Below are positions 26,338-31,399 of a stretch of DNA of 64,000 bases, one piece after another (the stretch's first letter is position 1; every line of letters begins with the position of its first letter). The translations under genes and the position numbers were made by a program. The notes beneath the pieces are model-generated. The model saw nothing but the letters and a program-made list of their open reading frames with translations. It had not been told where the DNA came from and searched no databases. The stretch lies in the NCBI GenBank assembly GCA_947626285.1, contig CANQRR010000009.1, forward strand, positions 23,484 to 87,483. Direction: 5' to 3'. The stretch comes from an uncultured Lachnospiraceae bacterium (GTDB lineage: Bacteria; Bacillota; Clostridia; Lachnospirales; Lachnospiraceae).

Positions 26338-26480
26338 ACGCGTTCATCCCTGTCTTTGAATGATGTCAAGTGACATGTCAAGTTTATCGTACTTATCATA
26401 CCCGAATTTCAAAAAAGTGGCAACTTAAAATGATAAAATTATTTTCTCTTATTTAAAGTTGGCAAAAAAATTCATATAAT

Positions 26481-26600
26481 TAACATAATATAATTATGTA
26501 AAATGAAAGCAATATATTTGCACAGATAATTAACATAATTATATTATGTAAATTTAAAGCAACATATTTACGAAATTAATTGACATAATAATATTATGTA
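26481..26600. repeat. Three 20-bp palindromic boxes on an exact 50-bp period in AT-rich intergenic DNA
   Basis: Cores ACATAAT-ATA-ATTATGT (26483-26499), ACATAAT-TAT-ATTATGT (26533-26549), ACATAAT-AAT-ATTATGT (26583-26599). Confidence 0.92.
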
Positions 26601-26725
26601 TACCGAATAAACTTGTATATCCGTGCTTGAAAGAAGAGAGTGCTTTTGTTATACTCAAAGAAATGGACAAATGGTCATGGGAGTTAAGGTTAAATACGCG
26701 AAATACGCGCATGGGTGGTTATAAA

Positions 26726-27857: not shown

Positions 27858-28913
27858 TTATCCTTCCCGTAGCCGTACTGCGGAAGCAGCCCGTCTGCGG
27901 CGATCCTCATCCATAGCCGCGTAATGCTTCCTCGTCGTGTTGACGTCCTTGTGCCCGAGCACGTCCGCGACCAGATAGATATCGCCGGTTTCCTTGTAGA
28001 GCGTGGTTCCGTAGGTACTTCGCAGCTTGTGTGGAGTAATCTTCTTGGTGGTCGTGATCTCACGGGCATATTTTTTAACCATATTTTCGACCGCCTGCAC
28101 GCCGATGCGTTTTCGCTGGGTAGAGTAGAAGAGGGCGTTCTCATGGCCGGCGATCGGCGTGATGGATTCCCGGATCTCCAGATAATCCAGAAGCGCTTTT
28201 TCGACTTCCTCACCGAAATAGACGATCATTTCCGAGCCGCCTTTGCGCACGACGCGGATGCCGCCGTTCTTGAAATCAATGTCAGACACATCGAGGCCGA
28301 CACATTCCGATACACGGATTCCAGTGCCCAAAAGCAAGGTGATGATCGCCAGGTCGCGATATTTTGTTTTCTCATAATAGACTTTTTTCTGACCGGTCAG
28401 ATGATCCCCGCAGTGTTCCACATAATCCAGCAATTCCGCGGTTTCGTCCGGGTCGAGCCGTATGATCTCCTTATCGTGGAGCTTCGGCATATCGACCAGA
28501 AGCGTCGGATTTGTCTTAATCAGTTCACGCTTGTAATAATAGGCGTAAAAACTGCGCAGAGCGGACATTTTGCGCTTCAAGCCGCGTTCTCCGTTTGTTA
28601 AAAGTTTGTCATCATTGGAATAGACCTTCAGATATTCCTGATATTCCTCAATATCGACCGCCTGAAGCTTGTCCAGCACATCCACAGTGATATCAGCCGC
28701 AGATTTCCCTTTGAAAGCGGGATTTTCCGTCAGAAGAAACTGGAAAAAGACGCGAATGTCGTATGCATAGGAAATCCGCGTGCGCGTGCTTGTCGTAGGC
28801 TCAATGGCGCGAAAATAATCCTTGGCAAACGGCGGCAAGGACTTAAGCACCTCGCGAAGCTTCAAAACATTGTCGATGTTGACCTGTTCGTGGTAAGTGA
28901 TCGTTTTCTCCAT
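27858..28913 (-). CDS. XerS-like tyrosine recombinase
   Basis: Catalytic motifs GTGIRVSE (R), PHKLRSTYG (HxxR), LGHKDVNTTRKHY (H...Y); 351 aa; from memory, spacing and motifs resemble streptococcal XerS. Confidence 0.88.
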   Translation of the reverse strand: MEKTITYHEQVNIDNVLKLREVLKSLPPFAKDYFRAIEPTTSTRTRISYAYDIRVFFQFLLTENPAFKGKSAADITVDVLDKLQAVDIEEYQEYLKVYSNDDKLLTNGERGLKRKMSALRSFYAYYYKRELIKTNPTLLVDMPKLHDKEIIRLDPDETAELLDYVEHCGDHLTGQKKVYYEKTKYRDLAIITLLLGTGIRVSECVGLDVSDIDFKNGGIRVVRKGGSEMIVYFGEEVEKALLDYLEIRESITPIAGHENALFYSTQRKRIGVQAVENMVKKYAREITTTKKITPHKLRSTYGTTLYKETGDIYLVADVLGHKDVNTTRKHYAAMDEDRRRRAASAVRLREG

Positions 28914-28954
28914 ATATAAAATCCCCTTTGTAAATTATTTTAAATCCAAATCGT

Positions 28955-29240
28955 TTAAAGTCTGATCAAGCGTATGTATTATAGATAAATCCATGCTTTT
29001 CAAGTTCGATGGGCGATTGCATAATAATAGTTGTATTATTTTTTAAAGTCCATGTTTTTCAAATCAGATCAAGCGTACGTATTATAGAATAAATCCATGT
29101 TTTTCAAATTAGATGGGGCGTTTGTATAATGACAGTTGTATTATTTTTTATTAACTTCATGTTTTTCAAATTAGATCAAGCGTCCGCGATAGATGAATGG
29201 GAATTTACTTGAATTCAGCTTGATCTATTTGAAAAACATG
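28955..29240. repeat. Alternating direct-repeat array with a terminal inverted copy, immediately upstream of the recombinase
   Basis: CATG(T/C)TTTTCAA units at 28992, 29051, 29096, 29158; alternating GATCAAGCG (28964, 29067, 29174) and GATGGG (29008, 29112); inverted copy GCTTGATCTATTTGAAAAACATG 29218-29240. Confidence 0.9.
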
Positions 29241-29330
29241 TGTTTGTCGTATAGATGTATTATGGAAATACCATATCATCTTCTTCCAAAAATGTCAAGT
29301 TATATTGTAAGCACCAATGAAAACATCATT

Positions 29331-29416: not shown

Positions 29417-31399
29417 CTATTTAATTTCGACCGTATAAGGAATCGTATTGAGCAATGTGCCCGCTGCATCGTAGAACGACACCTGGAAGCTGGTCTTTCC
29501 TGGCGCATTGAGCGTAGCTGTGAAGCTGCCCGATGCAGTAAATTCACCTATATCGAAACTGATCATCGCCGGGTCGGCATTTTCGATGTACGCTGCAGTC
29601 ACCGGCGTGCCATCCATCATGACCTGCCCCTGTGCGGTATTCCCAACGGTCAGATTCTTCTTGTCAATACAGAATCCGAATCCGGAAGTCTGGATCGGCC
29701 ATGTACCGCTGTCTTCGATTGCCGCTGTCATCATAGTCCCGTCCGCAGAGGTGAACGCATTCTCCGTCATCGTCACATAGCTAAATGAAAACGGCGCAAG
29801 CGGATTCTCCAACAGGATGCTTGCCTTGCAGCCAGCGGTCCACCCCAGCGCTGTGAGCTCTTCCGCATCGAGCGGGCAGATGGTGACCTTCTCTGTGTCG
29901 TTCGCCTGGATCGTCTCAATCGCGGAGCCGTCAGACGCATTGACAATGGTGATCGCGCCCGTGCCCGCAAGGATATCTTCTCTCTGGAAGCTGATCGTAA
30001 GCTCATTGATACCCGCCGGAAGCAGTTCAGCCGTGGTAATGTCATACAGCGGCGCAAATTTCATCTCTTCCGCCGCGATCGACATAAGGATCGGAGCTGC
30101 CGGCGCATCAGTGGTCGGCTCTTCTGGAACCTCAAACATCGGATCCCCAAGCTCCGGCATCATCGTGTCGATGCCGGAGTCGTCTGCCTGTGGCTCCGAC
30201 TGCTCTTCCGGGCTTGTCTCCGGAATCATGTTGTCCCCTTCTGCCGGCACGCTTTCTGTCTCGCCGCTTTCTGCCGGAAGTTCAGTCTGCTCCGCATTGA
30301 GATTCTCGGTAACAGGCTCCTCGGTGGTCTGGCTCGCTGCCGGATCTGTGTACTCATCAGTATTGAAGATCTCAATATCGCCGGCTGCTGTCTCGCTTTG
30401 CATCTCAGACTGCGGCGTCTCTGACTCAACCGCCTCTGGTGTCGTAGCGTCCATGACTACATCTGAACCGAGCGCCGAATCGTCGGTACCACTCAATATG
30501 CTGTCCTCAGGGAGCTCCGTCTGCTGCTGCTCTCCTGCACTTGCCGCCGGAACTTCCGGTGCCGGCGCGGAGGTTTCAGTCCCTGCCGCAGTCGACGCGG
30601 TCGTCTGCGGCTGATTCATGAGCGCGTCCATATTCTGCTCCACGCGCTCCAGTGTCTCTTTCATATCGTCATAATTGTACTTCTGCTCCGAGATCTGCTT
30701 CATGAGCTCTACGAGCATGGCGCGGTCTTCGGCGGAAAGCTCGATGTTTTCCTCTTCCGCCACGTCGTTGACGATGACGTTGATATCGTTTTCATTGACC
30801 ACATCGCCCTGGACGACCTGCATCTTGGCCTCATTGACGATATCGGTGGCCTCTGCCTGTCCGATGTTGTTGGCGATCGTAGTCGTCGTGATGAGCTCCT
30901 GTGTGGCAACCTCTTTCTTGGTCGCGTCAAGTTGCGTGCCGACTGCCGACTCATAAGCCATCAAAATACCGGTCAGCGCACCCGTGCCGGAGACTTCGAA
31001 CGGAGCTGCCGCGAGCACTTCGCAGTTCACTACGCCGGATGTCGAGAGCGTCGTCGCGATCATATTGCTTGTGACCCAGGTCAGATTCGCCGTCTTGACC
31101 TGAATGCCACCCATATTGGTGGGATTCACCAGCGCGCAGCTGTAGGTACGCGTGCCAATCTGCTCCAGCGGCACATAAGAACCGAGATGATTTCTCTCAT
31201 CCTGATTCGTGATGGTGAGCGTCTGGATGTTCTGCCCGGCGATGCCGAAATAACGGAGGATCGCCTGCTTCTGCTCTTCTGACAGATCCGCGCCGAGCGT
31301 GACGACCTTCTGCCCGTCGGCGAAGGCAGGCGTGGAAGGAATCGCCGCCGCAACGCACAGAGCGCTCAGAATGACAGCAAGTAATTTTCTCTTTCTCAT
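29417..31399 (-). CDS. Secreted DUF1002 (YpuA-like) protein with acidic low-complexity middle and C-terminal beta-rich region
   Basis: Signal peptide MRKRKLLAVILSALCVAAAIPSTPAFA; VVTLGADLSEEQKQAILRYFG, SCALVNPTNMGGIQVKTANLTWVTSNMIATTLSTSGV. Confidence 0.85.
   Translation of the reverse strand: MRKRKLLAVILSALCVAAAIPSTPAFADGQKVVTLGADLSEEQKQAILRYFGIAGQNIQTLTITNQDERNHLGSYVPLEQIGTRTYSCALVNPTNMGGIQVKTANLTWVTSNMIATTLSTSGVVNCEVLAAAPFEVSGTGALTGILMAYESAVGTQLDATKKEVATQELITTTTIANNIGQAEATDIVNEAKMQVVQGDVVNENDINVIVNDVAEEENIELSAEDRAMLVELMKQISEQKYNYDDMKETLERVEQNMDALMNQPQTTASTAAGTETSAPAPEVPAASAGEQQQTELPEDSILSGTDDSALGSDVVMDATTPEAVESETPQSEMQSETAAGDIEIFNTDEYTDPAASQTTEEPVTENLNAEQTELPAESGETESVPAEGDNMIPETSPEEQSEPQADDSGIDTMMPELGDPMFEVPEEPTTDAPAAPILMSIAAEEMKFAPLYDITTAELLPAGINELTISFQREDILAGTGAITIVNASDGSAIETIQANDTEKVTICPLDAEELTALGWTAGCKASILLENPLAPFSFSYVTMTENAFTSADGTMMTAAIEDSGTWPIQTSGFGFCIDKKNLTVGNTAQGQVMMDGTPVTAAYIENADPAMISFDIGEFTASGSFTATLNAPGKTSFQVSFYDAAGTLLNTIPYTVEIK

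Follow-up and report, generated by a model that had tools for sequence, protein, structure and literature searches.

What are the repeats that lie directly upstream of a tyrosine recombinase gene in an uncultured Lachnospiraceae bacterium, and does the recombinase act on them? We analyzed the whole stretch of DNA, a window of 64,000 nucleotides. An earlier note had described half-units in the order A-B-A-B-A with a higher-order unit of 103-107 bp, closed by an inverted A copy. Tandem Repeats Finder (28964-29193, period 105, 2.2 copies, score 289) and a repeat-family analysis bore out both the order and the unit. The inverted copy at 29218-29240 also matches 29158-29181 over 23 of 24 positions (one extra base) across a 36-bp spacer, as claimed. 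The repeats are therefore real, but they are only part of the structure, as a 34-bp site, a promoter and a GC-skew switch point had been missed. The feature should be drawn as 28947-29298. The parts of the locus, with the recombinase gene, are as follows.

27858-28913, minus strand: XerS-like tyrosine recombinase, 351 aa (Pfam Phage_integrase 2.3e-35; NCBIfam XerS 214 bits)
28947-28966, plus strand: half-dif copy 5, type A, strongly decayed (repeat family D1; read from the sequence)
28964-29193, no strand: tandem unit of 105 bp carrying the A/B half-sites (Tandem Repeats Finder score 289)
28992-29010, plus strand: half-dif copy 4, type B, 3 mismatches (mismatch count against shuffles)
29051-29069, plus strand: half-dif copy 3, type A (repeat families; mismatch count against shuffles)
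29096-29114, plus strand: half-dif copy 2, type B (repeat families; mismatch count against shuffles)
29158-29176, plus strand: half-dif copy 1, type A, inverted relative to the facing arm of the putative dif and its partner in a potential hairpin
29177-29181, plus strand: CAAGC beside half-site 1, complementary to GCTTG (29218-29222) beside the putative dif
29223-29256, no strand: putative dif site, 34 bp, with ATCTATTTGAAAAA (29223-29236), the centre CATGTG (29237-29242) and TTTGTCGTATAGAT (29243-29256)
29270-29298, minus strand: predicted xer promoter, TTGACA-17-TATGGT, with the -10 ending 13 bp before the putative dif

The 34-bp site, the recombinase and the predicted promoter

The inverted A copy makes up the left portion of a near-palindromic site that extends over 34 bp (14-bp arm, 6-bp centre, 14-bp arm). 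This site was found once in the window, where none is expected by chance. With up to three mismatches allowed, 39 of 47 genomes of the genus contain exactly one copy and none contains two. The site lies upstream of the orthologous xer gene in most named Lachnospiraceae loci (Blautia, Diplocloster, Mediterraneibacter, Parablautia and others). The arms are conserved and the 6-bp centre differs between clades (CACATG, CCCGAG, CGCGAG, TACAGG, TGATAG and others), as would be anticipated of an overlap region flanked by recombinase arms. Across the window, GC skew stays positive until about 28 kb and is negative beyond, with a cumulative peak at 28165. Among 52 related loci with enough flanking sequence, the skew is positive upstream and negative downstream of the site in 51, and the median distance between skew peak and site is 1.0 kb. 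Judged from local GC skew only, the locus is the predicted replication terminus of the Lachnospiraceae chromosome.

Because the site has two inverted, conserved arms around a short, freely varying centre (14+6+14 bp), occurs singly on the chromosome and sits where the skew flips at the predicted terminus, it is very probably the dif of a dimer-resolution system with one recombinase. Its inner arm, TTTGAAAAAC, resembles TTGAAAAC, the consensus of the single-recombinase sites difH and difSL, and such sites often adjoin the recombinase gene (PMC2731167); difSL is a single-recombinase site (PMC5357621). As in XerS/difSL-type modules, the recombinase gene here adjoins its site. In the open papers searched, we found no naming of a Lachnospiraceae dimer-resolution site. 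A 34-bp dif that marks the terminus would give a handle for work on assembly, replication and segregation in Lachnospiraceae, which are dominant gut bacteria.

The neighborhood of dif varies among relatives. In some loci the gap between dif and the recombinase gene is 0.5-1.4 kb, and L052, L079, L081, L107 and L111 carry 0.7-1.4 kb of extra DNA there. L053 and L090 have no recognizable dif within 10 kb of the orthologous recombinase gene. Upstream of dif in the window lies a gene for a DUF1002 secreted protein (29417-31399), and the gene end beside dif looks similar in several relatives.

The catalytic R-K-H-R-H/W-Y set of tyrosine recombinases is complete in the 351-aa protein (R200, K224, H295, R298, H321, Y331) and invariant in 34 orthologues. 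Of all NCBIfam matches, XerS (NF003462 equivalog) is the best, at 214.3 bits; since this falls below the cut-off of 267, we call the predicted protein XerS-like and not XerS. The AlphaFold model is of modest confidence (pLDDT 83, pTM 0.56, domains loosely placed). It matches XerA, XerH and XerD structures, so the predicted structure confirms an Xer-type fold only. A single orthologue is present in 40 of 41 relatives from 17 families of the order. No XerC over the cut-off was found in any of the 41, and several of the families had no other Xer match at the threshold used. The enzyme is not the only Xer of its own genome, which also encodes one XerD over the cut-off, along with FtsK with a gamma domain. 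We infer recombination at dif by the XerS-like enzyme: a single protein would bind both arms, exchange strands there and resolve dimers, presumably with FtsK.

A predicted promoter on the minus strand (29298-29270) would read through dif, which places dif at the transcript start. TTGACA-16/18-TATAAT promoters scoring at least 10/12 were detected in 34 of 71 loci, compared with 2 in shuffles, and in nearly all array-bearing loci. Their -10 mostly ends 11-15 bp before dif. Because dif coincides with the start of the xer transcript, recombinase bound there should obstruct the promoter and would thereby hinder transcription of its own gene. We interpret the overlap as probable autoregulation of xer, and the location of dif within the recombinase's own promoter makes this directly testable. 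The earlier note had suggested core or accessory sites that were possibly autoregulatory. This came close, in that there is one full core site, the putative dif, accompanied by an array of half-sites.

The half-site array in the xer leader

The array element, CATGTTTTTCAAATNAGAT, consists of one dif arm plus four bases of the centre; the arm usually carries an additional base. Every copy is inverted relative to the dif half facing it. Three exact copies start at 29051, 29096 and 29158, and these are the only exact copies genome-wide. The copy at 28992 has 3 mismatches and the leftmost one (about 28947-28966) is strongly decayed, so that the two leftmost copies of the array (28947-29193) are the decayed ones. 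At up to 3 mismatches, the window holds five matches, four of them in the array, compared with 0.06 per shuffled window.

Inverted half-dif copies between dif and the start codon were found in 13 named loci (in 0 of 200 shuffles), and the wider genus set added further ones. Only two clades of the genus have such copies, and most relatives lack them; on the tree, the array requires 4 gains or losses, compared with 13 when labels are shuffled. In 12 loci, 38-43 nt separate dif from the start of the first half-site; in 4 others the gap is 13-14 nt. The inner 14 nt of the half-sites are 90% identical across loci, compared with 38% for the intervening DNA. Half-site spacings, worked out by hand, revealed no common helical phase. 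The earlier note had set against its own proposal the possibility that the array is absent beside orthologous recombinases in relatives. This absence does occur, for the array though not for dif: L038 lacks the array that the near-identical L039 carries, and the array is therefore dispensable. The two sister genomes form a ready natural experiment.

Where the dif arm varies, the first half-site of that genome shows the matching variant. In L056 and L058, several bases of the dif arm and the first half-site have changed jointly, and in L058 the second half-site keeps the old sequence. A change in recombinase specificity is unlikely to have caused this covariation, as the L058 and L062 enzymes are nearly identical and their arms differ.

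We considered several explanations for the array. Our favored reading, held tentatively at a little under even odds, is that the half-sites are recombinase-binding regulatory elements that tune autoregulation, because the copies distant from dif retain the inner-arm motif. Half-sites in the leader would hold the recombinase beside dif and the promoter, setting both the expression level and the occupancy of dif. The mirrored variants are better explained by pairing or template switching than by protein binding alone. One way to account for them, which we consider unlikely, is a hairpin of 20-26 bp between the facing dif half with its flank and the first half-site, formed either by the leader RNA of xer or by DNA in a single-stranded or cruciform state, whose folding would control xer expression or access to dif. 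Such a hairpin is predicted to be stable in 16 loci (z about -3 to -7.3), and its 23-bp stem covaries, with 30 double-changed cells compared with 10.6 in shuffles. The CAAGC/GCTTG flank extends the stem outside dif by five pairs that also covary in relatives (21 compared with 8.1), and in both cases 0 of 500 shuffles reached as high a value. The near-fixed distance from dif to the first half-site, kept despite diverged loops, would also fit. However, the same covariation arises from template switching, the whole leader of the window has a z of only -1.4, and the second and later half-sites have no pairing partner of their own. The stems contain A-C mismatches (10) about as often as G-U pairs (7), and wobble asymmetry thus gave no indication of selection at the RNA level. 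An Rfam search returned no family at gathering score, and its weak microRNA matches merely reflect the hairpin.

Alternatively, the half-copies could be a functionless by-product of template switching at the terminus, perhaps at dif nicked by the recombinase, with tandem duplication multiplying the inverted copies and further template switching keeping them homogenized. Hairpins are known to arise and persist through template switching (PMC8794818). The patchy presence of the array, its precise loss in L038, the 105-bp tandem unit, the joint multi-base changes in L056 and L058 and the absence of an RNA-specific wobble pattern would all be consistent with such an origin. Yet the second and third half-sites, far from dif, are conserved while their surroundings diverge, the near-fixed spacing recurs in two separate clades, and a one-base insertion in the half-site that homogenization should erase persists in both. 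We regard this explanation as somewhat improbable; like the hairpin, it is nevertheless a serious rival of the favored reading.

The earlier note had also raised an invertible switch and arm sites of the integrase type. A tyrosine recombinase gene with repeats upstream does invite such a reading, and so does the inverted orientation of dif with respect to xer in L066, L067, L073 and L089, four loci that fall outside the array clades and where the promoter overlap is absent. An invertible switch needs two full inverted core sites on either side of a segment, whereas each genome has a single one, half-sites without a second arm cannot recombine as arm-centre-arm sites, and dif has a constant orientation in all array-bearing loci. 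Arm sites are the wrong model for a conserved chromosomal Xer that 40 of 41 relatives carry in single copy. None of the viral contigs searched carries the site with full arms, and five partial matches among them are due to chance; we therefore rejected exploitation of the site by mobile elements. An invertible or recombining switch or the attachment arm sites of a mobile element are thus highly improbable.

Returning to recombinase-binding half-sites, we put the whole explanation, a dif/Xer module at the terminus with promoter autoregulation and a half-site array in the leader, at a probability of roughly 60%.

Palindromes of XerD arms near dif

Within the window, a second set of repeats resembles the sites of XerD.

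26479-26503, 26529-26553 and 26579-26603, no strand: three tandem palindromes with a 50-bp period, each of two inverted XerD arms, ACATAAT-N3-ATTATGT

The palindrome GTTTACATAAT-N3-ATTATGTAAAC corresponds to the XerD side of dif from B. subtilis, present twice in inverted orientation, and such palindromes occur in most genomes of the genus. Of 46 counted, 43 share a contig with dif; none of these is more than 16 kb from it and most are no farther than 3.5 kb, in a count that leaves out the distinct sequence GTTTACAGAAATGATTTATGTAAAC, which is mostly on other contigs. This near-palindrome, found once per genome where present (on other contigs of G046, G015, G048 and others), is perhaps the operator of another gene.

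Of 47 genomes, 40 retain XerD (orthologue loci L002, L155-L159 and L175-L204). In the second array-bearing clade, its catalytic His is replaced by Gln in all 14 sequences examined, and in four of these (G001, G008, G013, G014) the protein ends before the catalytic Tyr. The truncations could partly be assembly errors of draft genomes, which is hardly so for a His change in all 14. Because B. subtilis uses XerD to unload SMC at its terminus (PMC10945525), we hypothesize that the palindromes may be candidate XerD sites for binding only. We further propose, speculatively, that the Xer jobs at the terminus are split. The XerS-like enzyme would resolve dimers at the promoter-embedded dif, with the half-site array tuning its supply; XerD, without XerC, would be kept as a DNA-binding protein at the palindromes, perhaps for SMC unloading, its catalytic residues lost in one clade. 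The palindromes and a catalytically decayed XerD would allow a test of whether SMC unloading at the terminus proceeds independently of recombination.

Comparison with known Xer systems

XerS/difSL of Streptococcus and Lactococcus shares with this locus a single large tyrosine recombinase (356 aa, compared with 351 here) and a site beside the gene at the terminus, and XerS is the best NCBIfam match here. It differs in that the enzyme here falls below the XerS cut-off and a XerD gene coexists. The 31-bp difSL is described with an 11-bp centre, whereas a 6-bp centre is predicted here, and we found no description of a half-site array in that system.

XerH/difH of Helicobacter and Campylobacter is similar in its single recombinase, a dif that is often beside the gene, a central hexanucleotide and the inner arm TTGAAAAC in common with the site here. 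The modest-confidence model matches the XerH structures 5jk0 and 5jjv at about 19% identity. XerH has been reported as phylogenetically unrelated to XerS, and the listed difH 40-mers contain no half-site array.

XerCD/dif of E. coli and B. subtilis also combines a terminus site, arms around a 6-bp centre and the FtsK gamma domain. Here, in contrast, gene and site are adjacent, XerC is missing at the cut-off among the 41 relatives, and the site sequence is unrelated to ACTTCCTAGAATATATATTATGTAAACT. The palindromes at 26479-26603 are comparable to XDS, the XerD-SMC unloading sites of B. subtilis, in their terminus location, and each of their arms equals ATTATGTAAAC, the XerD side of dif in B. 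subtilis; here they form a palindromic double arm around a 5-bp centre, and most lie at most a few kb from dif.

In the open papers searched (subscription papers were outside the search), we found no description of a half-site array within a recombinase promoter-leader. As predicted from sequence, the array in the promoter-leader is a variant of the known dif/Xer kind of module.
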